From an uncultured Flavobacteriales bacterium (lineage in GTDB: Bacteria; Bacteroidota; Bacteroidia; Flavobacteriales_G; Salibacteraceae): DNA of 64,000 nt. The notes beneath the pieces were generated by a model. That model searched no databases, was not told where the DNA came from, and saw nothing but the letters and a program-made list of their open reading frames with translations. A program made the position numbers and the translations under genes. The DNA lies in NCBI GenBank assembly GCA_905479105.1, contig CAJQLE010000001.1, positions 62,001 to 126,000 on the forward strand. Direction: 5' to 3'. Of this stretch, positions 31,723-54,194 are shown piece after piece (positions within the stretch are counted from its first letter, which is position 1; each line of letters opens with the position of its first letter).

Positions 31723-32574
31723 TTAATAACTCCACAGGTCATGTTCCATATTGGTAATCTTAGACTTAATAGCTTCTGCTTCTATAAGAGCATTTAAACC
31801 CGTTTTGAACTGCCCAATACCTCGATCATAAACGTTAGACGTCTTGATAATAAAGCTACCAAACTGTCTTTTCCAAAAGATATCCTCATAGGTTCTTCTT
31901 TCTACGTCATTCCCCCTATTGAATACTTCAGACTTAACAAAAACATATCTGGCCTCAGGATAATAAATCCAAAACAATGGCTGTAAACCACGATAATCAC
32001 CAGCTTCATCCTGCTTGGCTTTCATAGGACAAATACCAATAATTCTTACATCCATTACCGATCTTTGGCGATCAAAGAACCACTCTTCTTTGATTTCATA
32101 CCACTTTACATCAGTACTTTTAACATCAATATTCACGATGATAGGCTCCATTTCTCCGGTCATCAAATTTTCAGTGTAACTAGTGTCTTTGCTTGATAAG
32201 AGATTTCGAACTTCGTCAGTTGTCATCCTCTTGGTAAACATATCGTCATCCCCTAGTGCTCCTGGATCGTATGCCGTTAAGGTGCCATCATTAAGAATAG
32301 CATCTTTAATCACATCAAAAAGTGATTTCCTGCCTTGAGCAGGCTTCTCTGGAAAATACATTGGATGATTGATCTTTTCACGCAAATCAACCCTACGCCA
32401 CACGCGCTGCAGCCACATTATATCTGCTTCTCTCAACGGGGCGTAAGAAATAACTTTTCTTTCAAGCGTGTGCTCGGGTCTATAGATGCCGTCAAGAACA
32501 TCCTGTGCCGAAACAACGTTTGATGAAAACAGTATAGCCGAAAAGGCAACTAAAGAAAAAATCAATCTTTTCAT
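31723..32574 (-). CDS. gldN: Type IX secretion / gliding protein GldN
   Basis: The 283-residue protein has a signal peptide (cleaved after VSAQ, about residue 24) and the GldN/PorN features: VWRRVDLREKINHP after residue 55, the EWFFDRQRSVMDVRI segment near 170 and the FWIYYPEARYVFV strand near 205. GldN is a periplasmic partner of GldK, forming the rings below the outer membrane in the type IX secretion machine. It is the last gene of the operon, 16 bases after gldM. F. johnsoniae encodes a second copy (gldO); none is here. Confidence 0.94.
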   Translation of the reverse strand: MKRLIFSLVAFSAILFSSNVVSAQDVLDGIYRPEHTLERKVISYAPLREADIMWLQRVWRRVDLREKINHPMYFPEKPAQGRKSLFDVIKDAILNDGTLTAYDPGALGDDDMFTKRMTTDEVRNLLSSKDTSYTENLMTGEMEPIIVNIDVKSTDVKWYEIKEEWFFDRQRSVMDVRIIGICPMKAKQDEAGDYRGLQPLFWIYYPEARYVFVKSEVFNRGNDVERRTYEDIFWKRQFGSFIIKTSNVYDRGIGQFKTGLNALIEAEAIKSKITNMEHDLWSY

Positions 32575-32590
32575 AACTTAAATTTTAAGC

Positions 32591-34237
32591 TTATATCACT
32601 TTTAAGGAAAGTGTACCAAGGTCTCTTTGAGTACCATCTGGCCCACGTGCCTTAATCTTCTCAAGGTAAATCTTTTGTCCAGACTTCATCGCAGCTCTAA
32701 TTTTCTTAGCATCCGATGACAAATAAGGACCTTTACATTCACTTTCAACAATTTTTCCTTTAATTGTTGCGGAGACAACATAACTAACAATTTCAAACCT
32801 TAAATCAAATTCAAAATTCTCCATTTTAGCTATAACTCCTGGGGCCGCTAAGAAATCCTTAAACTTTATATTATCAGTACCTATAGTCGCCCCACCAAAA
32901 TATGGCTTTGGATCTGGGACATTCTTTACACGGAACTCCTTTTTACCAAAATTCTGCTTCTTCCCATTGATTTCAGCACTCACTGAAACTTCACATGTCT
33001 GACCTTTTCCTGGCTTCACCATAAAGTTTCCATTGGAGCCACTCTTACCAGCGTTTGAGATCGAAATCTCCAGCTTATCAGTAGGAACTCCTGGAACTGA
33101 AACTTCTACAGGATTCTCAAGACCTCGATAAAATACATTCATCGCTGTAGGTGAAACAACCAAGGCTGGTTTTGCAACCGTGTAAGATTGCCTAGGGATC
33201 TTATAAGATCTATAAGTCCCATCTGGGCCTTTGATCTGTATAACTCCTCCCCATTCTTTAACCCCTTCTGAAGAGGCTGCCACTGCGTACCTAGCAGCAC
33301 CATTTACAACAGTTATGTTAGAACTATCCAAGTTATCAAAACTGTCATAAATGGGCAAATCATTCGTGTCGTTGAACTCACTAGCCAACCTCATTCGCGG
33401 AGGCTGTGTCGTGCTAAAAGCAGCAACAATTACGTCAGCTACGAAGCTATCCCCTTGAATTACATATGTAGATCGAGGGATAACCTTTGCGGCAAGCGTA
33501 TCGAATTTGAAGTCATCTGCACTAATATTTCGATACAAGGCTTTAATAATATCCGCCTCTGCATTTCTAATATCTGCCTGCATTTTAGTCAGATTCGTCA
33601 CAACTGCAGCCAAAGGAAGGTGGTAGAAATTTGCAGTAACCCATGTTTGAGGCACTCCATCTTCTTTTCCAAAATCACCCTCTGTTGCCAAGCCCAATGC
33701 CAAAGCATTTTTCTCTTCTTCGTCATTAAAAAGATAAAGCAATTCAGATTTGAAATTCTCAATTTTACTTTTTAATTCTAAAGCTGACCATTCGCCTTCC
33801 TTTGGTGCATGAGGGTCTGAACCCACTAACCAAAGAGTTGGTATATCATAGTTATCCTTGGAATCAACATTTCTTAAATTAAAAAGAGAATCATCCTCCA
33901 CCTCTTCAATAGATGAATTTCCTGCTGTAACAGCTATGAGATACTTTTTTAATTCTTCGATATGGAGATAAATCTCATCGGATAATCCTTTTGCTCTAAA
34001 AGCCTTATTGTAGAACTCCGCAACCTTCGCTGGGTCATTCGCTTTAGCTTTTTCAAATTGCGCATAAGTGAACTCATTCTTCGCCATGAAGTTTTCATTC
34101 GTAACCTGCAAACCTTCATTAATGATTACAAATGCATTAAGAATATCCTTTGATACGTTCATCGCCAGAAGAGCTGTGAGTACTAAATACATCATACCAA
34201 TCATCTTCTGCCTCGGGGTTTCTTTTCCACCACTCAT
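32591..34237 (-). CDS. gldM: Type IX secretion / gliding motor protein GldM
   Basis: The 548-residue protein begins GGKETPRQKM, has one transmembrane helix (about residues 12-32) and a long periplasmic part of beta-rich domains. Arginine R9 at the cytoplasmic edge of the helix is the residue known to pair with the GldL glutamate in the proton-driven motor. The N-terminal TM, the asparagine-rich coiled segment to about residue 230 and four periplasmic beta domains fit GldM/PorM. It sits between gldL and gldN as in all type IX systems. Role: transmit motor movement through the periplasm. Confidence 0.95.
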   Translation of the reverse strand: MSGGKETPRQKMIGMMYLVLTALLAMNVSKDILNAFVIINEGLQVTNENFMAKNEFTYAQFEKAKANDPAKVAEFYNKAFRAKGLSDEIYLHIEELKKYLIAVTAGNSSIEEVEDDSLFNLRNVDSKDNYDIPTLWLVGSDPHAPKEGEWSALELKSKIENFKSELLYLFNDEEEKNALALGLATEGDFGKEDGVPQTWVTANFYHLPLAAVVTNLTKMQADIRNAEADIIKALYRNISADDFKFDTLAAKVIPRSTYVIQGDSFVADVIVAAFSTTQPPRMRLASEFNDTNDLPIYDSFDNLDSSNITVVNGAARYAVAASSEGVKEWGGVIQIKGPDGTYRSYKIPRQSYTVAKPALVVSPTAMNVFYRGLENPVEVSVPGVPTDKLEISISNAGKSGSNGNFMVKPGKGQTCEVSVSAEINGKKQNFGKKEFRVKNVPDPKPYFGGATIGTDNIKFKDFLAAPGVIAKMENFEFDLRFEIVSYVVSATIKGKIVESECKGPYLSSDAKKIRAAMKSGQKIYLEKIKARGPDGTQRDLGTLSLKVI

Positions 34238-34279
34238 AGTTGCTTATACTTTTTTCGTTCTAGAAATTTGATAAACGGA

Positions 34280-35137
34280 TTATCCGTTGTTGTTTGAACC
34301 TCCAACATTCATGGCAGCAAGCATATTTCCATACACTCTATTCAGGGCAGTTAAATTATTTGAAAGCTCAGATATACTCTCTTTGTATCGCTTTGTATCC
34401 TCAACAGAAGACTGCAGGTTAGACATCAATTCTGTAATACCATTGTAGAATTGATTAGTCGACTCCATTTGTTCTTTACTTCCTTGAAGTTGTGCATCAT
34501 ATACACCACCTAGCTCTTGAAGCTTAGAAGTAACTGACCTTAAACTATCCGCATAATCATTGCCATCACCAGAAGACATGCTGATACTAGCTAAACTCTC
34601 AGACGCTTTTGAGTATGTCTGAGAAAGAGCAGTTACACTAGAAGCAGCACTTCTAACGCTATCAACATATTCAGACGTAGCAACAGACGCATCAGACATG
34701 TTACTCAACTTACCTGCATTATCAGAGAGAGAGCGAAGACCTACACCTAGACTTTCAATAAGCTCTGGACCAATTTTTGCTTCTTCGAGCATATTATCCA
34801 ATTGCTCAGTGATAGGTAACTCTTCCTTAGAATCCCTGTCTGAAGACTCTTCAATTGCCTCGTGATCTTCATCTTCATGCTCATCAGAATGAACAGCTAA
34901 TTCTGGGTAAACTAACTCCCATTTTGGCTCTTCATGCATTGGTTCAAACGCTGAGAAGAAAAATATAACCGCTTCTGTAGACAGACCTACAACTAATAAC
35001 GGACCTGAAAATGGCCAGTGCATAATTTTAAAAAGAGCTCCCACGATTACTACGGCTGCTCCTATTCCATAAAGCTTAGCCATGAAGTCCTTCCAACTTT
35101 TACTTCCGGGTCTGAATCCTTTAACTTCTTGAGACAT
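34280..35137 (-). CDS. gldL: Type IX secretion / gliding motor protein GldL
   Basis: GldL (285 residues) has two transmembrane helices near residues 22-40 and 45-64. The conserved membrane glutamate E55 (LSTEAVIFF) lies in the second, the position known to be needed for the proton motive force motor. After the membrane region comes an acidic stretch (about 80-110) and a long serine-rich coiled-coil cytoplasmic domain (SVTALSQTYSKASESLASIS). GldL and GldM form the inner-membrane rotary motor. The gap to gldM is 42 bases. Confidence 0.95.
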   Translation of the reverse strand: MSQEVKGFRPGSKSWKDFMAKLYGIGAAVVIVGALFKIMHWPFSGPLLVVGLSTEAVIFFFSAFEPMHEEPKWELVYPELAVHSDEHEDEDHEAIEESSDRDSKEELPITEQLDNMLEEAKIGPELIESLGVGLRSLSDNAGKLSNMSDASVATSEYVDSVRSAASSVTALSQTYSKASESLASISMSSGDGNDYADSLRSVTSKLQELGGVYDAQLQGSKEQMESTNQFYNGITELMSNLQSSVEDTKRYKESISELSNNLTALNRVYGNMLAAMNVGGSNNNG

Positions 35138-35182
35138 AATTGAATTTATTAGGTATTAATGATTAAGTTAAAATTATTAAGG

Positions 35183-36508
35183 TTATATATCATCTCCTTT
35201 GGCTCGGCCAAGGAATGTCATTACGTTTCTAAAACCGATATAGCTCTTCGCAGTATCCTGATATTCATAAGTTCTTGTTCCTGTTTGGAGGTAGTAACCA
35301 ATATCCTTCCAACTTCCACCTCTTAGAACTTTTCTCTTTAGAACGGGTGGATCATCGTCCTTAGCCTCATATACATAGTCCATGTTCAAGTCATGCGCAA
35401 AGTCAAATGATGACTCATCGAAGGCATTACTCGTCCATTCAGCAACATTCCCGGACATGCAATACAAACCATAATCGTTAGGCGAGTATGATGTAACAGG
35501 CACCGTATGGAATCCACCGTCATCTACATAATTACCTCTCATAGGCTTGAAATTAGCTAGAAAACAACCTCTTGTATTTCGAATGTAAGGACCACCCCAT
35601 GGATAAGGATCCAAATCCAGTCCACCTCGAGCAGCATACTCCCATTCAGATTCCGTTGGAAGTCTAAAATCTTGAACTACTCCGCCACCAATCTCTCTTA
35701 GGAAGCCATTTAATAATTCAGTTCTCCAAATTCCAAAAGCTCTTGCTTGTTTCCAAGTAACTCCAACAACCGGATAATCATCATATGCTGGATGACTAAA
35801 GTACATCTTGGTCATGGGCTCATTAAACGAGTAGGTAAAATCATGCACCCAACATAAAGTATCAGGATAAACATTAATAACATCACGCTTAATAAAGATC
35901 GAACGATCTGTCATACCTCGCTGTCTCAATGGCGCTCCAGGACCACCCTTTCTTGCCGCATCACGGTAATCAATCCAGAAATATTCATAATCCAATTTTC
36001 TAGAGTCAATCTCTCTTCTACCTCTGAAACGTTCAAATTCAGGATAATACATCACTTCAAGAGCCTCCCTCTGGTCTGGATCCGCCCAATCAATTCTAGA
36101 ATTCCAATTAATATGAGGCGGGTCTATATCCTCATCATATGAGTTTATAGTAAAAAGATACTCTTCTTCATCAATCTCTTCACCAAGTATTCTTCTAGCA
36201 ATACTGTCTCTTACCCAAAACACAAATTGACGGTATTCGTTATTTGTGATTTCAGTTTCATCCATGTAAAATGCCTGAACAGAAACTGTTTTCGATTTTG
36301 CTGTAGAAGCATATGGAACATCCTGATCGCTTGGTCCCATATTATATGAGCCCATAGGAAGATAGAGCATGCCGTATGGATCTGGCTGATACCATGCAAT
36401 CCTATTTTGAACGCCTATCAGCTGTCCATTCCCAGAGCTGCCGCAACTGCTCAGGAAAATCGGCAATGCTGCTAGCACTACCATTGCGTATTTGAGCGAG
36501 TTTTTCAT
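35183..36508 (-). CDS. gldK: Type IX secretion / gliding lipoprotein GldK
   Basis: GldK (441 residues) starts with a lipoprotein signal, lipobox FLSSC with lipidated C22. The body is a formylglycine-generating-enzyme (FGE/sulfatase-modifying) fold: MGPSDQD, YMDETEITNNEYRQFV, RLPTESEWEYAARGG, CMSGNVAEWTS, VLRGGSWKD and GFRNVM. Catalytic cysteines of true FGE are not evident, as expected for a structural GldK. It forms the outer-membrane-side ring with GldN. An AAAGGAG stretch precedes the ATG, one of the few Shine-Dalgarno-like sites in the window. Confidence 0.95.
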   Translation of the reverse strand: MKNSLKYAMVVLAALPIFLSSCGSSGNGQLIGVQNRIAWYQPDPYGMLYLPMGSYNMGPSDQDVPYASTAKSKTVSVQAFYMDETEITNNEYRQFVFWVRDSIARRILGEEIDEEEYLFTINSYDEDIDPPHINWNSRIDWADPDQREALEVMYYPEFERFRGRREIDSRKLDYEYFWIDYRDAARKGGPGAPLRQRGMTDRSIFIKRDVINVYPDTLCWVHDFTYSFNEPMTKMYFSHPAYDDYPVVGVTWKQARAFGIWRTELLNGFLREIGGGVVQDFRLPTESEWEYAARGGLDLDPYPWGGPYIRNTRGCFLANFKPMRGNYVDDGGFHTVPVTSYSPNDYGLYCMSGNVAEWTSNAFDESSFDFAHDLNMDYVYEAKDDDPPVLKRKVLRGGSWKDIGYYLQTGTRTYEYQDTAKSYIGFRNVMTFLGRAKGDDI

Positions 36509-36578: not shown

Positions 36579-37601
36579 CTATAAGAATCTTACGCTCTTA
36601 TGTCTTGAAACAGGGGATTTCTGTTTTAGCTTCAAACAATATTGGACAAAGATTTCATGAGAACCATTGCTACCTGAAGCTAACTTGTTTGTTGTCACGT
36701 CATACGCGTAGCCTGTTCTCAGGGTTCCAGGAATTGTTCCGGGCTCCCAATTTACTCCAGCCATCAATACAACTGCATCAACGTATCTATATGTTAACCC
36801 TCCCCAGATGAAATTATTGTATTCAACGAGTGCATTCACATCCACCTGAGCCGAAACAAGGTCAGACTTCACGAAAATTGAAGGCTTCAAAACAAATAAT
36901 GGATTTGGTAATGGAAAATCATACCCTCCCATTACGAACAAATGCGATTTCATCGAGAAACTAGTATTGTAATTAACAACATCTGGGTTGGTTCCAAATC
37001 CTCCTCCTAAACCCTCGCCCTCAGCGTTAAAAGTAGCACCGGTCAAGTGAGTCAAAGATGCTCCAATAAACATTCTATTGGTTTTGTAATAAAGCCCTAA
37101 GTCCAAATCAAGTTTACTAGATTGAAAACCCTCATCGGGAATTGCGGGATCTGAATAGTATGGATTCGTACTTCTCCAATTATTTCCCAACCCAAACTGA
37201 AGCCATCCTGCGCTTATGCCTATTCCTAAATGACCTGGATCACTTCCGGTAATATTTAAAGGAATATGAGCACTATAAGAACCTTTGATAGAAGTAAAGT
37301 GCATTTGACCTAAAGCATCTCCAGTAATTACAAGACCACCACCACTTCTCAGATTGATCCCAGGAATAACGAATGTACCGTGGGCGCCCAACAAATATGT
37401 TTCTGGACGACCTTCAAAGCCAACCCACTGCTGACGAGCAATGGTATAAACACAAATCCCATCATTCATACCTGCATAAGCTGGATTAAAAAACAGCTTA
37501 TTATGCATGTTCTGACTGAACTGCGGATCTTGCTGTGCATCAGCCTTGAAGACCAACGACAACACAAATAGTAAAGAAATTACTCCAACTTTTAATTTCA
37601 T
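36579..37601 (-). CDS. PorP/SprF family type IX secretion outer-membrane protein
   Basis: The 340-residue protein has a signal peptide (cleaved after ADAQ) then the family motif QDPQFSQNMHNKLFFNPAYAGMN, and repeats of beta-barrel strands (ITGSDPGHLGIGISAGWLQF, SFSMKSHLFVMGGYDFPL, IWGGLTYRYVDAVVLMAGVNW). PorP/SprF proteins help export or anchor large type IX substrates on the cell surface. It heads the porP-gldKLMN operon, as in F. johnsoniae and P. gingivalis. Its substrate may be one of the SprB-like proteins, such as the giant protein in this window. Confidence 0.9.
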   Translation of the reverse strand: MKLKVGVISLLFVLSLVFKADAQQDPQFSQNMHNKLFFNPAYAGMNDGICVYTIARQQWVGFEGRPETYLLGAHGTFVIPGINLRSGGGLVITGDALGQMHFTSIKGSYSAHIPLNITGSDPGHLGIGISAGWLQFGLGNNWRSTNPYYSDPAIPDEGFQSSKLDLDLGLYYKTNRMFIGASLTHLTGATFNAEGEGLGGGFGTNPDVVNYNTSFSMKSHLFVMGGYDFPLPNPLFVLKPSIFVKSDLVSAQVDVNALVEYNNFIWGGLTYRYVDAVVLMAGVNWEPGTIPGTLRTGYAYDVTTNKLASGSNGSHEIFVQYCLKLKQKSPVSRHKSVRFL

Positions 37602-37634
37602 AAATAGGACAGTAGATCTAATTGTTCAGACTTG

Positions 37635-37664
37635 CTAAATTACTTAAATTTCAAATCGAGTCAA
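37635..37664 (-). promoter_or_regulatory. Candidate promoter for porP-gldKLMN
   Basis: On the minus strand TTG (37664-37662), 19 bases, then TAATTTAG (one mismatch from TAnnTTTG). The ATG of porP is 34 bases downstream. Confidence 0.45.
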
Positions 37665-37728
37665 GAAATTTCCACGAACGTAGGTGTTTTTCAAGCTCAA
37701 TGGGAGAACAAACTCGACCAATTAATAT

Positions 37729-38865
37729 TTAAAGCATCTTTTTATAGGCCTTCCACCATCTTTCTGGCAGGTCGTCCCTTGTTGCGATCAAATAATCATC
37801 GTATCCACAGGGAATCAAATGGTGCTTGCGATACTTGTTCGCAAATTGCGGAGGCACAGGCACTTCCATCCACCAACGATCAGTAAAAACACTCTTATAA
37901 AAAACCAATTGAAACTCATCATTCCGAAGGGGTACGCGGTACTTTAAAAATCCGTCTTTATTTCCTGAAGGAATTTCCGACTTCCTGCTGTAAAAGCCAT
38001 CCACATGACACCAAATCATCTCGGCAATTAAAGTAACATCACTCTGATAAACCTTAGAAAGGTTTAGATCGGTGATAATAACGACTCTATTTTTTTCCGC
38101 TAAGCCAGCATAACGGATCATTTGGCACACTTCTTCGGCATAAAAACCATTAGGCTGAGGATTCATAGAACTTCTAAAGTCGCTAGACTTTAAAACCTCT
38201 AGTGAACACGAAATAATTTCTGCACTGCGAATAACAGGTTCGACACTTTGAACATCTCCTCTAACAGACCCCAGTCTAAAAAAGTCAAAAAAGAGTTCAT
38301 CGGCTAATTCTATTTCCTCGGGTGATACAAAATAAGTTTGAAAACCTATGTTAGAATAGTTGAACAAATAATTAGGTTGTTCTTTAATTATCCTGCCAAC
38401 ATAGTTAAAGGTACTGTCCTCGTCAAGGTTGAGATAATTATCAATAGAAGTAAGATTGACGATCTGTTCCTCTTTTTCAAATGCCTTATAAGCGGTGTAT
38501 GTAAGATTTCTTCCACCACCAATTATGATAGGAACAATCTTTTGTCTCACTAAATACTGAATAAGGTCGGAAAGTCCTGCCTCAGTATCAGATATTTTAC
38601 TGCCAATTTTAAAAATACCAAGGTTTAAAATCTTTGGCTCAAAATCATGGACATAAAGCTTTCCAAGTGAAATATTGATCTGATTAAATATTTCATTTAC
38701 ATCACTTGTACCATGATCAACCCAACGATTTTCTGGCACATAGATAATAGCAAGATCAAAGTCTTTGACTTCTACAGAATCAGAATACATGATTATTTGA
38801 GAAGAAAGCGATGTTCCTTCAGATTCAAATTCAGCTAAACTTTCAAAGTAACTGGCAATCTCCAT
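37729..38865 (-). CDS. Arginase-fold protein lacking metal ligands (probable pseudoenzyme)
   Basis: The 378-residue protein has the arginase/ureohydrolase layout: IIIGGGRN (113-120), VNLTSIDNYLNLD (136-148) and ISCSLEVLKSSD (219-229), followed by NPQPNGFYAEE. In active enzymes these carry the manganese ligands (GGxH, DAHxD, SxDxDxxDP). Here they read GGGRN, IDNYLN and SLEVLKSSD, so the histidines and nearly all aspartates are gone. An arginase-like gene beside the gldKLMN block and topA is, as I recall, a recurring arrangement in flavobacteria. It is 4 bases from topA on the same strand. A structural or regulatory role in type IX secretion is inference. Confidence 0.8.
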   Translation of the reverse strand: MEIASYFESLAEFESEGTSLSSQIIMYSDSVEVKDFDLAIIYVPENRWVDHGTSDVNEIFNQINISLGKLYVHDFEPKILNLGIFKIGSKISDTEAGLSDLIQYLVRQKIVPIIIGGGRNLTYTAYKAFEKEEQIVNLTSIDNYLNLDEDSTFNYVGRIIKEQPNYLFNYSNIGFQTYFVSPEEIELADELFFDFFRLGSVRGDVQSVEPVIRSAEIISCSLEVLKSSDFRSSMNPQPNGFYAEEVCQMIRYAGLAEKNRVVIITDLNLSKVYQSDVTLIAEMIWCHVDGFYSRKSEIPSGNKDGFLKYRVPLRNDEFQLVFYKSVFTDRWWMEVPVPPQFANKYRKHHLIPCGYDDYLIATRDDLPERWWKAYKKML

Positions 38866-38869
38866 AAAA

Positions 38870-41176
38870 CTACTTTTTAGAAGTCTTTCTCTTTTTTCCT
38901 TTGTTGGTCGGACTTGAGGTATTCATGATTTCCAAGCATTTTTCCAAGGTCAAAGCCTCAGGATCCTCGGTCTTTGGAAGCTTGTAATTATCCTTACCAA
39001 CTGCCATATAGGGACCGTAGCGTCCTTTCAATATTTTAATTTCTGGGTCGTGATCGAAAACGTGGATGATAGCTTTTAATGCTTCTTCTTTTTTCTTTTT
39101 AATCACCTCAATTGCCTGATCCATTGTAACCTCCAATGGATCTAAATCTCCCAGATTATAAAAACCTCCATCATATCGCACGAAAGGCCCGAAACGTCCA
39201 GCAGAGGCAATGACTTCGTTTCCTTCCCATTCACCCAGATTTCGAGGAAGCTTGAACAACTCCATGGCCTCTTCATAGTTTATAGTCTGAATACTTTGTC
39301 CTTCTCTAAGCTTCGCAAACTGCGGTTTTTCCTCATCAGAAACATCACCAATCTGCACCATTGGTCCGTATCTACCCAAACGTGCAACGACTGGTTTACC
39401 CGTTTTTGGATCCGTTCCTAAAATTCTTTCGCCCGTGGCTCGCTCTGAATTCTCCAATGTATCCTCCACCGTATCATGGAAAGGTTTGTAGAACTTCGCA
39501 AGCATGTTGGTCCAAACCAACTCACCTCGAGATATATGATCAAATTCTTCTTCCACAGAAGCTGTGAAGTGATAATCGAGGATTGAACTAAAATGTTCCT
39601 GCAAAAAATCATTAACAACCACTCCAATGTCCGTTGGAAATAATTTATTACGCTCAACACCTGTATTTTCCGTTTTAGTTTCTTGTTTGACATCGGAGCC
39701 ATCTAGAGAGAATACTTTGTAATCTCTCGATTGACCATCTCTATCTTCCTTCACTACGTATCCTCTTTTTTGAACCGTACTGATTGTTGGAGCGTAAGTT
39801 GACGGTCTTCCGATCCCAAGCTCTTCAAGTTTCTTTACCAAACTTGCCTCACTATATCGCGGAGGATGCTGAGTAAACTTCTGTGTCGCTTCTAAACCTA
39901 TTTGATTCAGTTGATCACCTTCAGCAACATTCGGAAGATTGTCATTACTTTCTTCGTCTTGTTCATCATCCGTGCCTTCGAGGTAAACTTTCAAGAATCC
40001 TTCGAAAGTGATGATTTCTCCTTTTACTTCAAATTTTTCAGTTAATCCGGCCGCGCCAATTTTAATAGTGGTTCGCATCAATTTGGCATCACTCATTTGG
40101 GAGGCAATTGCTCGCTTCCAAATCAACTCATAGAGCTTTTGTTCACGTGGATCAGATGAACCAATTTTTTCATTGAAGTACGTAGGACGAATTGCCTCGT
40201 GTGCTTCTTGAGCATTAGCTGTTTTGGTAGCATACTTTCTCGGATTCAGATAATCTTCTCCATACTGTCCTAAAATTTCAGCTGTGGCTCCTTCTATTGC
40301 TGTGCCACTCAAGTTCACACTGTCCGTTCTCATGTAAGTAATCTTACCAGCTTCATATAAGCTTTGAGCCAGTCTCATGGTTTGAGCAACAGAATTACCC
40401 AACTTTCTTGCGGCTTCTTGTTGAAGCGTTGATGTAGTAAATGGAGCAGAAGGAGTTTTCTTACCTGGCTTTTTATCAACGGACTCGACTGAAAATTCAG
40501 CGCCTGAGCACGTTTTTAGAAATGCATTTACTTCTTCATCAGATTTCAATCGCTTATTCAAATCCGCTGAAAAGCTTTTACCCTCAGCCTCGAAGACAGC
40601 CTTAACTCTGTAGTAAGGCTCCGCATTAAAAGCACCAATTTCCTTTTCACGCTCAACAATGAGCCTGACAGTAACACTCTGCACTCGTCCCGCAGAAAGA
40701 GATGGCTTCACCTTTTTCCAAAGAACAGGGCTTAACTCAAAACCAACAATTCTGTCAAGAACTCTTCTAGCCTGCTGAGCATCCACTAAATTCTTGTCAA
40801 TTGTTCTTGGATTTTCAATTGCTTTGAGAATAGCTGGCTTAGTAATTTCATGAAAAACAATTCGTTTGGTCTTGTTTTCTTTCAACCCAAGTGCTTCAAA
40901 TAAGTGCCAACTTATAGCTTCTCCTTCGCGATCCTCATCCGTTGCTAACCAGACAATATCAGCGTCCTTACTTAGTTTTTTAAGTTCAGTAATGACCTTT
41001 TTCTTATCAGGCATTACCACATAGTCCGGCTTAAAATGATTCTCTAAATCAACCGAAAGCCCTTTCGTTGGAAGGTCTCGGACGTGACCGTAACTAGATT
41101 TAACAATGTAATCTTTTCCAAGATAACCTTCAATTGTTTTTGCCTTTGCAGGAGACTCTACTATCACCAAATTCAT
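38870..41176 (-). CDS. topA: DNA topoisomerase I
   Basis: The ATG at 41176 gives 768 residues starting NLVIVESPAKAKTI; a TTG two codons earlier is not needed. The Toprim acidic motif DEDREGEAI lies near residue 110 and the active-site tyrosine Y281 in TYMRTDS. GRVQSVTVRLIVERE is also typical. The C-terminal third carries repeated glycine-rich modules (LGRYGPMVQIGD, AGRFGPFVRYDGG, KGRYGPYMAVG), degenerate of the zinc ribbons, without cysteines. It relaxes negative supercoils. Confidence 0.97.
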   Translation of the reverse strand: MNLVIVESPAKAKTIEGYLGKDYIVKSSYGHVRDLPTKGLSVDLENHFKPDYVVMPDKKKVITELKKLSKDADIVWLATDEDREGEAISWHLFEALGLKENKTKRIVFHEITKPAILKAIENPRTIDKNLVDAQQARRVLDRIVGFELSPVLWKKVKPSLSAGRVQSVTVRLIVEREKEIGAFNAEPYYRVKAVFEAEGKSFSADLNKRLKSDEEVNAFLKTCSGAEFSVESVDKKPGKKTPSAPFTTSTLQQEAARKLGNSVAQTMRLAQSLYEAGKITYMRTDSVNLSGTAIEGATAEILGQYGEDYLNPRKYATKTANAQEAHEAIRPTYFNEKIGSSDPREQKLYELIWKRAIASQMSDAKLMRTTIKIGAAGLTEKFEVKGEIITFEGFLKVYLEGTDDEQDEESNDNLPNVAEGDQLNQIGLEATQKFTQHPPRYSEASLVKKLEELGIGRPSTYAPTISTVQKRGYVVKEDRDGQSRDYKVFSLDGSDVKQETKTENTGVERNKLFPTDIGVVVNDFLQEHFSSILDYHFTASVEEEFDHISRGELVWTNMLAKFYKPFHDTVEDTLENSERATGERILGTDPKTGKPVVARLGRYGPMVQIGDVSDEEKPQFAKLREGQSIQTINYEEAMELFKLPRNLGEWEGNEVIASAGRFGPFVRYDGGFYNLGDLDPLEVTMDQAIEVIKKKKEEALKAIIHVFDHDPEIKILKGRYGPYMAVGKDNYKLPKTEDPEALTLEKCLEIMNTSSPTNKGKKRKTSKK

Positions 41177-41285
41177 AATCAACAGCGCTTTTCAATGACT
41201 GCAAATAAAACGCAAAATAATGTGGTCTGCACGAAACCTTGTTTTTGATGTCAATAATAAATGCACAAATCATCACCTGACATTT

Positions 41286-48480: not shown

Positions 48481-51400
48481 TTATCTACCAACGACAAACC
48501 TCTTTGTAATGAAACGTCCATCAGATTCAATATCCAATAAATAAATTCCTACTGCTACATCATTTATATCCAATTGGATTTCGCTCTGATCGATTTTAAA
48601 CCACTGCGATTGATCAAACTCTTTAACAAATTGGCCCGTGGAGTTTAAAAGATTGACTTTTAAGCCTTCATCAATTTTCCAATTTCCAAAATTTACATTG
48701 AGCCTATCTGAAGCTGGATTTGGGAAAACAGAAAGCTCATTGATCGCAAATGACTCCTTGATACCAATAGTAGCAGTATCGCAATCAAGAAGAGTAATAC
48801 TGATAGAATCAAATGTCTGGCAACCATTAATATCGCTGATGCTCACAAAGTAGACACCCGCACCAATTCCAATCAATGAATCGTTGGTAGACCCGTTGTT
48901 CCATAGAAAACTGTACGGAGCGGTGTTACCTTCTACCAACGCTGTAATAAATGCTGAACTGTCATCAGCACAAACAGAATCACTGGAAGCGCTTAGCAAA
49001 GTTGCATATGGTTCGGGTTCAGATATACTGATTGAGTCATTTACTGAGCATCCAGCTGCGGATGTAGCTGTTACGAAATAACTTCCTGGTCCTAGATTCG
49101 TGATTTGAGCAGCCGTATCGCCCGTATTCCAAAAATATTCATATAATCCATTCATTCCGGAAGATAATGCTGAAATAACTCCCGAACTATCACCTTGGCA
49201 TAAAATCTCAACGTCCTGAACGATTTCTAATTGACTTAGACTATCAAAGATCAAGACTGAGAAAAATGATGAATCGATATTTCCAGAACTATCTATGGCA
49301 TACAGTAAAACACTATTAAGTCCGATTTCATTGCATGTGAAATCTGTTTGACTCAACCAAATTGAATCTAAATCACAGTCAACTGTAGCACTGTCAGCTT
49401 GAGCTGATGATAGAGAAGCTGTTCCGTTGGCATCTAACCCTAAAGCTATCAGCTGAAAAGGATACACTGTTGGAGAAAAGGTGTCAAGAACAGTAACATT
49501 AATCTGAGTTGAGGACTGATTTCCTGAAATATCTATAGCGTTAAACGTCACCGTGTTTGTCCCAATATGTGAACAATAAAAGCTTTCTTGACTCAGCCAA
49601 ATACTATCAACACTGCAATTATCGAAGGTTCCTGCATTCGCTGAATCAACAGATATTGAGACATTTCCAGTTCCATCTAAGAAAACCGTAAGATTATTAG
49701 TAATAATAACCGGAGCTATCGTATCAAACACACTCACGGTAAAATCAGTTTGGCCGATATTTCCATTAATATCAATCGCAAATAGTGTTACCACATTGGT
49801 ACCCGTGTCGCTGCATTGGAAATCAATTTGATTGAGGTAAAGTGAGTCGATTCCACAAGCGTCAAACGACCCTCCATCAACAGAAGCCGGAGTAATTGAA
49901 GCTAAGCCAGAAAAATCTAAAAACAACTGAACATTGTTTGCAACTACGTTTGGAGAGATCGTGTCAAACACTGACACAAAATTGGCTGAAGAATCAATGT
50001 TTCCATTTACGTCAACAGCATAAAGCATCACTGGCTGAGGCACACCTATGTCGCTGCAATCAAAGTTATATCTGCTAAGGTACATCGTATCAATTCCGCA
50101 ATTATCAGAACTAGCCACATTGATGAACGCAGTGTCTATTGTAAATGATCCACTTGCATCTAAATAAATTGAAGTATCGGCAGATTGAATCAATGGCCCA
50201 ATGGTATCTGAGTTGGTTATTGAAATTGATGTTGTATCCGAACATCCATTACTGCTATTCACAGTTACGGTGTATGAACCAATTGACAAACCAGAAATGG
50301 CCTCTGTATTGGCAAGGTTACTCCAAGCATAAGTATAAGGTGCTGTACCTCCTACCACCGAAACTTGAGCAGACCCATCATTTGAGGACAGACAAGTGGC
50401 ATTAGAAAAAGATGAAATACTGGCTACCGCAGCTGTTGTAGCTGGAATAATATCTACTTGAGTAATATCGAAACATCCATTGATGTCTGTCACTGTTACT
50501 TCATACGTACCGATTACTAAGCCAATGATAGAAGATGTGCTCGCACCGTTGCTCCATGCATAGGAATATCCCGGAGTTCCTCCAGATGCTGATACCGATG
50601 CATCTCCATTATTACTTCCAACACAAATGGCATTGGTTGAACTCACGATAGACGCTGATACTGAGCTCGCTGGCTCAGAAATGGTAATTGATTGGGATGT
50701 TTGACATCCATTCGCATCCGATAGCGTTAATGAATAATTTCCTGCAGATAATCCGTTGACTGAATTGTTGGTTGAACCATTGTTCCAATTGAAAGCATAA
50801 GGAGCTGTTCCACCAGAACCAGAGGCTGCAGCAGACCCATCACTGCCACCGAAACAAGAAACATCAAAGGATGCACTAACTGAAGCCGCCAAAGGAGAAA
50901 CAGGTCCTGAAATCGTCAATGCGTCAATTATAGAACAACCATTACCATCCGTTGTCGTTACAGAATAACTTCCAACAGCTAATCCAGATATGCTTGCATT
51001 TGTGCTTCCGTTGCTCCACAAAAAAGAATAGCTTGGAGTTCCTCCCAAAACCGAGACTGAAGCCGACCCATCATTTCCTCCAAAACAATCAACATCTGCA
51101 GAAACAACTGAGGTTGAAAATAGTGTAGGTTCAGTTATCAAAACTGTTTCAACTATACTGCATCCATTAGCATCCGTAATTGTAACACTGTAAGTCCCGA
51201 CTGAAAGCCCAGTTACAGCAGCAGTAGTCTGTCCATCACTCCATAAATAAGAGTACGCAGGCACTCCTCCTGAGACTATAACTATAGCTGTGCCATCATT
51301 ACCAGCGTTGCATGTGACATTAGTTGATGATAATGCAGCTGACAATGCTGGTGGTTCGGCTATTGAAAAACTCGATGAGTCTGAACAGCCGTTGGCATCA

Positions 51401-54135
51401 GAAACGGTAACAGAATAATTTCCTACAGACAATCCAATTATTGATGGACCATTAGCGGAATTGCTCCAAGAATACGTATAGGGAGGCAATCCAGAAGAGG
51501 ATGATGCAACAGCCGAACCATTGTTTAAACCATTGCAGCTAACATCTGAAGACACTGCAGATATAGTTGGATTGCCATTTACGCTAATTACTGTTAAAGC
51601 TGAGTCGCTGCCGCAAGTATTTGAATATAAATATTGAATAGTATAGCTTCCTGTTCCCACAGAAACAGGGTCAAAAATTGAATCATTAGTTATTCCAGTT
51701 CCTGAAAACACTCCTCCACTTGGCGATGCATAATTAGCAAGAGAGATAGACGCGTCTCCTTCGCAAAGATTTGGGAAAGCGGAAAACGAAACATTCAGAA
51801 TTGGATCTACAACTAATTGAAATGTATCATATCCGTTGCAACCACTCGCAATGACAGAGTAAATAATTTGATGGGTACCTGGGCCCGCTATGGCTGGATA
51901 GAAAAAATTCAAAGAAACCCCAGGACCACTAAAGGTTCCACCAAAAGGCGAACCGTAAGGAGCTAATGGAAGGAACAATGTTGAAATACACTGCTTTGGA
52001 ATTGGAGTAATATTAACCAATGGGACCGCTGTCACAATAGCTGTGATGGAATCATCAGCCAAGCAACCCGCAACAGAATAATAAATAATATGCGTCCCAA
52101 CACCAGCTGCAGAAGGATCAAACACCGAGCCGATGACACCAGGTCCAATGTGCGTTCCGTTTTGAGGAAAACCATATCCAGCTCCAGATAAAGATATTGA
52201 CCCACCATTTTCACAAGCTGATATATTATTAATGAAGATGGTTGGGTTTTGATTTACTACAACAGTTTTAGTCACACTATCTGAACACGAATTCCCATCG
52301 GTATAAGTATATGTAACCAAATTGGTTCCCAAATTAGCAAGTGAAGGATCAAATATGCTGCCAGATATAACGGCAGAACCAGAGTATACTCCACCTAATG
52401 GACTTCCACCTTGAAGTGAAAATGCTACTTCGGTTTGACAAACTGCACTCAAATTTGAATGTGAAACGTTTGGCAAAGAATAAACCGAAATTGGGAGTAC
52501 GTTGCTAGTATCTTTACATCCTGCACTATCGACTATTACCGAATACGATCCAGAACTTAAAGCTGTGAAATTCGAAAATATCTCTCCTGGCATTGAGGCA
52601 CCATTAAAAAGCCATTGATAAGAGTAAAGACTATTGGTATCCGCCACAAGAAGAGCGCTTTCACTTTGACAAAAATTCACTTGACCATTAAAAGAATAAG
52701 CTTCTGCTTTTAACCTCGAACAATTTGCCAAACGCATTACAAAACCTTCTTGATTTGGACCGGCTGCGGTATTATTTCCAAAATCCATAACAGCATTAAA
52801 GTTTCCAACAACTAACATATTATCTAGATCAGAAGCAGCAGTGGCTCGAGCAACCTCTAAATCATTAGGAGCGCTCTCAGGAGCCCAAATAAAGCTCAAT
52901 GAATCTCCCTCATAATTATACCTCATGGCATATGGATTAAGATCACCAAATGGAGTGAGAGACAATCCCTGAAAAGACAATATATCGTTAAACGAAGACG
53001 CCATCAAGAAATTCCCAAAACCATCTACTGAAATTCCCATAGAATTGTTAATGCTCGAGTTTGTATTTACAAGCCATGCATCGTTTACATTTCCAGAGGT
53101 GTCACACTCAATTATCCAATCATTTACACCTCCTCCGAAAAGACTTTGAGCACCAAAAGCGATAATTCCCTCGCCATGTCCACAAATTAAAACTTTCTGG
53201 TTCTGATCAATGGCTATATCGGCTCCAACATCGGAGTTAACACCTCCACCTTTATTCAACCAAATCGGACTCCCTGTTAATCCATTAAGTTTTGCATAAA
53301 AGACGTCCTGCGCACCAAAAGAAGTGGTTGTAAACAAATCAATTTGAACACTTGTAGTAAAATTGCCAGTGACATAAACATTATTGTGATTATCAACTGC
53401 CAAACCTCCTAAGCCACTGCTAACCTGAAAGAAATTGAAATTACCATAAGAACCATTGGTAACGATTTGTTTAGCCCAAATAAGCGAACCAGATGAATCA
53501 TATTTAGTGACTAAATACTCGCTCCCGAGGTTTGAGGGAGCAAACTGCAGTGAATCAACATATAATGTATCCGCGAACTGTGTTAAAGCGTAAACAAAAC
53601 CTAACTGATCCGTTTTCACATCTAAAACCGTAACTAATGACTTACATAAATGAGGAACACCCCAAACTGCATTTCCTAAGTAATCATACTTTACTATAAA
53701 AGCATTATTTTGAAAAAAAGCTGGTGTACCTACAAATGGGGGTAAAACGACCGATCCAAATGTTGCTGAGCCTGAATAATTTCCTGTTACATATATATCG
53801 TCATAAGGACTGATGGCTACTGAATTTGCGCCATCGGTTCCTACTCCTCCTCCGGAAACTGCCCAAATGGGATCTCCTTGAGAGTTATATTTGACCAAAA
53901 ACATATCAAAGTTTCCAAATATTGAAGGAGTGCCTAAAACACTCAAAGGAGCGAAAGATACGCTATCAATAAAACTACCTGTAACGATGTAGCCCCCATC
54001 GGAGGTAAACTCCACATCATTCGAATACTCAACTGAAGCCCCAGATTGAACATTAACATCGATATCAAATTGAGAAAATACTTTCGTAACTGTAAACAGA
54101 AGCAATATAAAAACGACAAAAATCCTACAATTCAT
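48481..54135 (-). CDS. Giant modular type IX-secreted protein with SprB and HYR-like repeats
   Basis: The ATG at 54135 gives 1884 residues (the frame is open from a TTG 48 bases earlier). Signal peptide to about residue 22 (FSQ). Residues 25-480 are a propeller-like region with repeated GGxGxDxxxxxxxxxxDxxYVTGxF motifs (SBBP/beta-propeller type). Residues 570-850 have four repeats like PxGGxYSGxGVxxxxFDPxxAGxGTHxIxY. Residues 855-1309 hold six SprB repeats of about 76 residues (CxGxNDGSA, YxWSNG, GLSxGxYSVTVTDANGC). Then four HYR-like modules of about 80 (1310-1630), two more SprB repeats (1631-1782), and a C-terminal type A sorting domain (VFPNPASDRLNV, GIYLLDIE). It should reach the cell surface through the Gld/Por system, as an adhesin or gliding protein. 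Confidence 0.9.
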   Translation of the reverse strand: MNCRIFVVFILLLFTVTKVFSQFDIDVNVQSGASVEYSNDVEFTSDGGYIVTGSFIDSVSFAPLSVLGTPSIFGNFDMFLVKYNSQGDPIWAVSGGGVGTDGANSVAISPYDDIYVTGNYSGSATFGSVVLPPFVGTPAFFQNNAFIVKYDYLGNAVWGVPHLCKSLVTVLDVKTDQLGFVYALTQFADTLYVDSLQFAPSNLGSEYLVTKYDSSGSLIWAKQIVTNGSYGNFNFFQVSSGLGGLAVDNHNNVYVTGNFTTSVQIDLFTTTSFGAQDVFYAKLNGLTGSPIWLNKGGGVNSDVGADIAIDQNQKVLICGHGEGIIAFGAQSLFGGGVNDWIIECDTSGNVNDAWLVNTNSSINNSMGISVDGFGNFLMASSFNDILSFQGLSLTPFGDLNPYAMRYNYEGDSLSFIWAPESAPNDLEVARATAASDLDNMLVVGNFNAVMDFGNNTAAGPNQEGFVMRLANCSRLKAEAYSFNGQVNFCQSESALLVADTNSLYSYQWLFNGASMPGEIFSNFTALSSGSYSVIVDSAGCKDTSNVLPISVYSLPNVSHSNLSAVCQTEVAFSLQGGSPLGGVYSGSAVISGSIFDPSLANLGTNLVTYTYTDGNSCSDSVTKTVVVNQNPTIFINNISACENGGSISLSGAGYGFPQNGTHIGPGVIGSVFDPSAAGVGTHIIYYSVAGCLADDSITAIVTAVPLVNITPIPKQCISTLFLPLAPYGSPFGGTFSGPGVSLNFFYPAIAGPGTHQIIYSVIASGCNGYDTFQLVVDPILNVSFSAFPNLCEGDASISLANYASPSGGVFSGTGITNDSIFDPVSVGTGSYTIQYLYSNTCGSDSALTVISVNGNPTISAVSSDVSCNGLNNGSAVASSSSGLPPYTYSWSNSANGPSIIGLSVGNYSVTVSDANGCSDSSSFSIAEPPALSAALSSTNVTCNAGNDGTAIVIVSGGVPAYSYLWSDGQTTAAVTGLSVGTYSVTITDANGCSIVETVLITEPTLFSTSVVSADVDCFGGNDGSASVSVLGGTPSYSFLWSNGSTNASISGLAVGSYSVTTTDGNGCSIIDALTISGPVSPLAASVSASFDVSCFGGSDGSAAASGSGGTAPYAFNWNNGSTNNSVNGLSAGNYSLTLSDANGCQTSQSITISEPASSVSASIVSSTNAICVGSNNGDASVSASGGTPGYSYAWSNGASTSSIIGLVIGTYEVTVTDINGCFDITQVDIIPATTAAVASISSFSNATCLSSNDGSAQVSVVGGTAPYTYAWSNLANTEAISGLSIGSYTVTVNSSNGCSDTTSISITNSDTIGPLIQSADTSIYLDASGSFTIDTAFINVASSDNCGIDTMYLSRYNFDCSDIGVPQPVMLYAVDVNGNIDSSANFVSVFDTISPNVVANNVQLFLDFSGLASITPASVDGGSFDACGIDSLYLNQIDFQCSDTGTNVVTLFAIDINGNIGQTDFTVSVFDTIAPVIITNNLTVFLDGTGNVSISVDSANAGTFDNCSVDSIWLSQESFYCSHIGTNTVTFNAIDISGNQSSTQINVTVLDTFSPTVYPFQLIALGLDANGTASLSSAQADSATVDCDLDSIWLSQTDFTCNEIGLNSVLLYAIDSSGNIDSSFFSVLIFDSLSQLEIVQDVEILCQGDSSGVISALSSGMNGLYEYFWNTGDTAAQITNLGPGSYFVTATSAAGCSVNDSISISEPEPYATLLSASSDSVCADDSSAFITALVEGNTAPYSFLWNNGSTNDSLIGIGAGVYFVSISDINGCQTFDSISITLLDCDTATIGIKESFAINELSVFPNPASDRLNVNFGNWKIDEGLKVNLLNSTGQFVKEFDQSQWFKIDQSEIQLDINDVAVGIYLLDIESDGRFITKRFVVGR
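48780..49245 (-). repeat. SprB-type repeats 7-8
   Basis: Two repeats of about 77 residues (QGDSSGVISAL and ADDSSAFITAL types) with YFWNTGDT and FLWNNGST cores, separated from repeats 1-6 by the HYR-like block. They end just before the sorting domain. Confidence 0.8.
49246..50208 (-). repeat. Four HYR-like modules (about 80 residues each)
   Basis: Each begins DT(I/F)(G/S/A)P and contains a Leu-Asp-x-x-G segment, DxCxID/VDS, (Y/W)LSQ or YLxR, and ends AIDxxGN followed by VxVF/L. The fourth is shifted at its start. 963 bases / 4 = 241 bases per module. Confidence 0.8.
50209..51573 (-). repeat. SprB-type repeats 1-6 (about 76 residues each)
   Basis: 1365 bases / 6 = about 228 bases per repeat. 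Each holds C-x-G-x-(N/S)-(D/N)-G, an aromatic Y-x-(W/F) pair with WSNG or WNNG, GL(S/A)xGxYxVTxxDxNGC and ends near ITEP/SEP. Repeats are diverged, so slippage between them is less likely than in recent arrays. Confidence 0.85.
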
Positions 54136-54194
54136 AGATGAGTTATTAAAAAAGTGTCCACTTTTTAAAATTGCAGCTTTCAAATCAATTTGGT

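Follow-up and report, generated by a model that had tools for sequence, protein, structure and literature searches.

The window analysed here is a stretch of 64,000 nucleotides from an uncultured Flavobacteriales bacterium. An ORF at positions 37729–38865 of its reverse strand (i.e. ATG start, stop codon included) encodes a protein of 378 amino acids, which was assigned to the arginase fold from its relatives and its predicted structure. The topA gene (38870–41182, reverse strand) lies 4 bp upstream of this ORF and the two are likely co-transcribed. Downstream on the same strand are a gap of 127 bp (37602–37728), a porP/sprF-type gene (36579–37601) and the gldK, gldL, gldM and gldN genes (31723–36508), the last five genes being identified by profile matches. 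The extent of the ORF and its placement between topA and a type IX secretion (T9SS) block were both as proposed in a first-pass annotation of the window. The frame was uninterrupted in the window's own genome and in 40 of 40 relatives (i.e. 41/41), demonstrating that this is not a chance ORF. No obvious signal peptide was detected in the protein on inspection by eye.

The proposal that this protein has a ureohydrolase layout was borne out by the predicted fold and by the profile matches of its relatives. The window copy itself was sub-threshold for both Pfam Arginase (17.2 bits against a cut-off of 22) and the TIGR01227 hutG model (21.5 bits against a curated cut-off of 229). In a profile search of its relatives, the hutG model was matched by 66 of 66 and Pfam Arginase (PF00491) by 65 of 66 with E-values of 0.01 or better, and a profile built from 66 sequences matched Bacillus subtilis HutG (PDB 3m1r) with an E-value of 1.4e-15. 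The predicted structure (pLDDT 90.8, pTM 0.91) exhibited the three-layer alpha/beta/alpha arginase fold in Foldseek and VIA matches. The top PDB matches were formimidoylglutamases, i.e. 3m1r with a TM-score of 0.74–0.76 on the target and the Trypanosoma cruzi HutG 4myn with a Z-score of 32.7 and an rmsd of 2.2 over 268 residues, and the formimidoylglutamase match spanned residues 12–296. By descent, as judged from fold and profiles, the protein is a member of the ureohydrolase (arginase) superfamily and its nearest ureohydrolase is formimidoylglutamase (HutG). It falls outside HutG as formally defined, being below the TIGR01227 cut-off and not beside hut or FtcD genes; none of these adjoin the gene in the window, where its neighbours are topA and porP-gldKLMN. 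Two of four fetched outgroup loci were checked and have HutG-type neighbourhoods, as one (L142) is beside a glutamate formimidoyltransferase gene and the other (L144) is beside hutI (imidazolonepropionase). Two canonical arginase loci gave no match and were dropped.

In arginase structures, the first metal is bound by H101, D124, D128 and D232 and the second by D124, H126, D232 and D234. The first-pass annotation had stated that each metal-binding motif of the window protein is replaced. The three motifs in question were indeed present and in register with their canonical counterparts, and the register was reproduced when the protein was independently aligned, pairwise, with PDB 3lhl. In the alignments, GGGRN (residues 116–120, 38506–38520, reverse strand; canonical GGDHS) carries Arg119 at the H101 position. 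In IDNYLN (residues 141–146, 38428–38445, reverse strand; canonical xDAHxD), Tyr144 and Asn146 replace H126 and D128 but Asp142, the equivalent of D124, is kept. In SLEVLKSSD (residues 221–229, 38179–38205, reverse strand), Ser221 and Glu223 replace D232 and D234, and Asp229 is conserved in alignment A1. The six ligands H101, D124, H126, D128, D232 and D234 are hence R, D, Y, N, S and E in the window protein, which does not carry the six-ligand set of an active binuclear ureohydrolase. Asp142 was found in each of the 148 aligned relatives. A further block, QPNYLFNYSNIGFQTY (residues 163–178, 38332–38379, reverse strand), is highly conserved in alignments of the family and appears to stand where the substrate loop normally lies.

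The six ligand positions were tabulated in 159 relatives. Outgroup proteins from other classes had sites that were intact or nearly so (i.e. HDHDDD, HDHNDD and NDHDDD). For the Bacteroidia, 14 listed window-clade rows were set aside together with seven very divergent rows, the latter being excluded from some of the counts, leaving 134 rows among which two window-clade members (L062 and L063) are still present. H126 and D234 occurred together in none of these 134 rows, and either one in seven; both positions are free to vary, with positional entropy ranks of 367 and 248, respectively, out of 377. The first-metal set, in the form Q/H/N-D-D-D, was kept in 122 of the 134 rows, with D128 and D232 retained and the H101 position mostly Gln in the wider family. 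Thus, across the relatives, the loss seen in the window protein is class-wide for H126 and D234 but not for the first-metal ligands. The 14 window-clade rows read R or K, D, any residue, N or S, S, and E, D or S at the six positions. This clade has a support of 100 and a long stem branch of 1.23. Only eight clade-specific switches were found at 108 conserved positions, and two of these fall on residual ligands (Asp146 to Asn and Asp221 to Ser; chance 0.005). Elsewhere, full or partial loss of the half-site required eight state changes on a tree without the longest branches. The half-site majority, the stripping of the window's clade and these additional changes argue for ligand loss that is staged and repeated rather than a single joint event, and the earlier suggestion that all ligands were lost together is refuted by this pattern and by the retention of Asp142. 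Four very divergent proteins (L149, L150 and L151 of family f17 and L152 of family f4) differed at nearly all ligand positions and are further independent candidates for full site loss.

Retention of the first-metal set, often with an equivalent of E277 (both being kept in 95 of the 134 rows), means that one-metal catalysis may persist in the family at large. A possible explanation, to which we assign a minority of the weight, is therefore that family members are one-metal enzymes that carry out a new reaction, and that only the window's clade, along with a few others, has lost the metal. The freedom to vary at H126 and D234 fits with this explanation, as does the constancy of the first-metal site in 23 of 23 genomes of family f13. 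Set against these observations, the repeated loss of the site while the rest of the protein was kept suggests that the site is dispensable, and a conserved Asp can be structural.

Residues 297–378 (37732–37977, reverse strand) form a Trp-rich C-terminal module, delimited by the extent of the structure match and by domain and fold searches. This module of approximately 80 residues is absent from known ureohydrolases. No Pfam domain was found in the module of the window protein and its relatives gave only scattered weak matches, PDB sequence matches had E-values of 0.087 or worse, and no fold match with an E-value under 2 was obtained when the module was searched alone (model pLDDT 79.5). Within the window's clade, it is the best-conserved part of the protein with 72–76% identity as compared to 29–69% elsewhere.

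The gene was detected at an E-value of 1e-18 in 351 of 376 sampled genomes of the class, a threshold at which very divergent copies could be missed. For a genus pair with proteins that are 93% identical, dN was 0.033 and dS was 1.32, giving a dN/dS of about 0.025; most of the other pairwise dS values were saturated and were left out of use. These substitution rates point to strong purifying selection on the protein and it is no relic. The alternative of a decaying remnant without function could draw on the lost catalytic residues and the long stem branch, and is highly improbable, as there is no internal stop in 41 of 41 relatives, the dN/dS is the opposite of the near-unity ratio or broken copies of a decaying gene, and the C-terminal module is strongly conserved in the clade. 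For the window's clade, the view of the first-pass annotation that the protein has taken on a non-catalytic role and is not decaying at random is hence supported by the intact frames, the prevalence in the class and the low dN/dS, and further by the presence of both residual ligands among so few clade-specific switches.

The neighbours of the gene were compared across several sets of loci, with five loci being dropped from the neighbour clustering. Where enough sequence was available among 30 loci of relatives, topA adjoined the gene in 29 of 29 and porP or gldK in 26 of 26. Adjacency of topA and porP/gldK was 21/29 for each in a phylum search of 29 loci, 56/75 and 36/69 (the latter for T9SS genes), respectively, in 80 named loci, and 5/20 for each in 20 hand-picked loci. 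Among loci readable on both sides, topA was present without T9SS genes in 18 and T9SS genes without topA in one. The gap between topA and the gene had a median of 12 bp and was 40 bp or less in 71 of 113 loci. For the gaps from the gene to porP (median 132 bp) and to gldK (median 159 bp), lengths of 40 bp or less were seen in 0/72 and 0/21, respectively. The likely operon, as inferred from this spacing, is topA plus the arginase-fold gene; the pairing is a lead and not a proof. The gap between the gene and porP in the window contains a promoter-like site ending at 37635 (reverse strand) with one mismatch to TTG-N19-TAATTTAG, which we take to be the Bacteroidota-type promoter motif. This site is weak evidence. 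The full motif occurred in five of 94 gene-porP gaps as compared to a mean of 0.76 and a maximum of four in shuffled sequences. The -7 part alone did not stand out from shuffled sequences, with 15 occurrences against a shuffle mean of 9.5 and maximum of 18, and a sigma-70 and terminator scan was uninformative.

The first-pass annotation had suggested a possible role in secretion or gliding. A T9SS factor of this kind, whose gene would head the porP-gldKLMN block, could for example bind the tail of GldL in the cytosol. The frequent adjacency to porP or gldK is in keeping with this role, as is a presence that broadly tracks that of GldL. Among the 376 class genomes, 351 had the gene and 362 had GldL, with both in 345 and neither in eight, the latter including family f23 and two reduced genomes. 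There are exceptions in both directions, with GldL only in 17 genomes and the gene only in six. This co-occurrence was set aside as support for a T9SS role; viewed by itself it resembles linkage, but most of it may reflect shared ancestry. All of the 17 GldL-positive genomes without a detectable gene (17/362) possess SprA. Of the genomes with the gene only, G462 is devoid of GldL, GldM and SprA, and a single sorting tail was counted in it. In another, G324, there are at least 150 T9SS sorting tails, and the missing GldL is probably an assembly gap.

Separation of the gene from the T9SS was observed in family f13, where seven of 131 genomes, G462 among them, are without GldM. A full-length gene was found in all seven of these genomes, likewise in 16 of 16 sisters examined, and the seven require five state changes on the protein tree. 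In another of the seven, G697, which is a single contig, gldKLMN is cleanly missing and the arginase-fold gene is kept at 84% identity; genes located on either side of gldKLMN in the related genome G636 adjoin each other here (1194342 and 1195666). Comparison of loci L195–L200 of G697 with L186–L188 of G636 showed that gldK, gldL, gldM and gldN, the T9SS core, were lost as a whole block from within otherwise syntenic genes. A GldM-negative pair (G669 and G703) had a dN of 0.0048 and a dS of 0.584, i.e. a ratio of 0.008, which is close to the 0.010 of a GldM-positive pair. The gene is hence not consistently lost with the T9SS, nor is it detected whenever the T9SS is present. Family f13, in which this independence was observed, does not have the gene beside gldKLMN; linkage to gldKLMN is a feature of the window and many relatives and is absent at the f13, f14, f20 and f21 loci looked at. 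A secretion or gliding role is not supported by these results, nor by the wide porP gaps, the lack of an obvious signal peptide and the identity of the tight partner, which is topA. As the T9SS is intact in the window's own lineage and adjacent to the gene, a T9SS role there retains some probability, and we consider it unlikely.

Another f13 genome in a single contig (G042, genus g27, locus L041) has GldL and GldM with no SprA match and one sorting-tail match, and its T9SS looks partly dismantled. In the window, a protein of 1900 amino acids encoded near groEL (48481–54183, reverse strand) contains numerous SprB-like repeats and ends, as judged by eye, in a T9SS-type sorting tail, and is a candidate large cell-surface T9SS substrate. 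One record whose title names a Bifidobacterium breve MAG (L114) carries a Bacteroidota arginase-fold gene together with topA and gldKLMN, and is mislabelled or a mixed bin.

The explanation that we favour, and regard as probable, is that the protein is a staged descendant of HutG and that the window member is a non-hydrolysing, T9SS-independent cytosolic binding or scaffold protein made with topA. The gene belongs to a Bacteroidia-wide family that derives from HutG and has acquired the conserved C-terminal module. In a first step, the ligands specific to the second metal (H126 and D234) were lost. In a second step, seen in the window's clade and in some further lineages, H101, D128 and D232 followed, leaving Asp142 alone. 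The fold, this staged replacement, the selection, the close spacing to topA and, in one family, the independence from gldM were all observed; that catalysis is gone, that the gene is transcribed with topA and that the protein binds a partner are deductions. Hydrolysis by the window member has, judging from its sequence, most likely gone. The refilled pocket and the C-terminal module may instead hold a partner, and the protein would be produced with topA and perform housekeeping work that is independent of type IX secretion. A more far-reaching and speculative version is that a living series has been preserved, with two metals in HutG, one in most Bacteroidia and none in the window's clade. The end point of this series would be a core protein of nearly the whole class, produced together with topoisomerase I, that now has a general regulatory or scaffolding role in the cytosol, perhaps as a sensor of a guanidino or amidino metabolite, and that is named an enzyme by its sequence though it is not one.

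A gene that is near-universal in the class (351/376 sampled genomes) resembles an enzyme whose site it does not have, and annotating its products as formimidoylglutamase would lead metabolic models astray. Gene neighbourhood alone would wrongly have placed the protein in type IX secretion. With both half-site relatives and a fully stripped clade in the family, metal content (i.e. two, one or none) becomes a direct test of the transition from enzyme to non-enzyme.

No published description or assigned role for this gene was found in the open-access literature, and comparisons were made with three known systems. The protein resembles HutG in fold, motif register and nearest sequence family, and differs in lacking the binuclear site and adjacent histidine-breakdown genes, in having an extra C-terminal module and in scoring below the HutG model cut-off. 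Trypanosoma brucei TbARG (PDB 4rhl, 4rhm and 4rhq; Z-scores of 24.4–24.7) likewise has a ureohydrolase fold without a native binuclear site, and is described in a review as inactive with key residues missing (PMC10820115). TbARG is a single trypanosome protein, whereas the window's family is bacterial and near-universal, includes a one-metal intermediate and has the C-terminal module. The third system is MetCb/MfmB, a bacterial ureohydrolase pseudoenzyme which, according to PMC11271267, is without five of the six ligands and binds the active subunit. By analogy with the place of MetCb in metformin hydrolase, the window protein could be a subunit that has no metal and assembles with a catalytic ureohydrolase. 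The close fold relation to metformin hydrolase subunits would favour such a pairing, as would the presence in the window's own genome (2.79 Mb) of two further ureohydrolases with intact motifs, namely an arginase and an agmatinase, the latter encoded in a polyamine locus. The MetCa and MetCb genes lie side by side, whereas no ureohydrolase gene adjoins the arginase-fold gene among the neighbouring window ORFs listed, and we view a partner subunit of this kind as quite improbable. MetCb/MfmB also differs in being found in other phyla and in lacking the C-terminal module, residues 300–378 of the window model being uncovered in the structure match. For the favoured explanation of a HutG descendant turned binding protein, TbARG and MetCb are the precedents.
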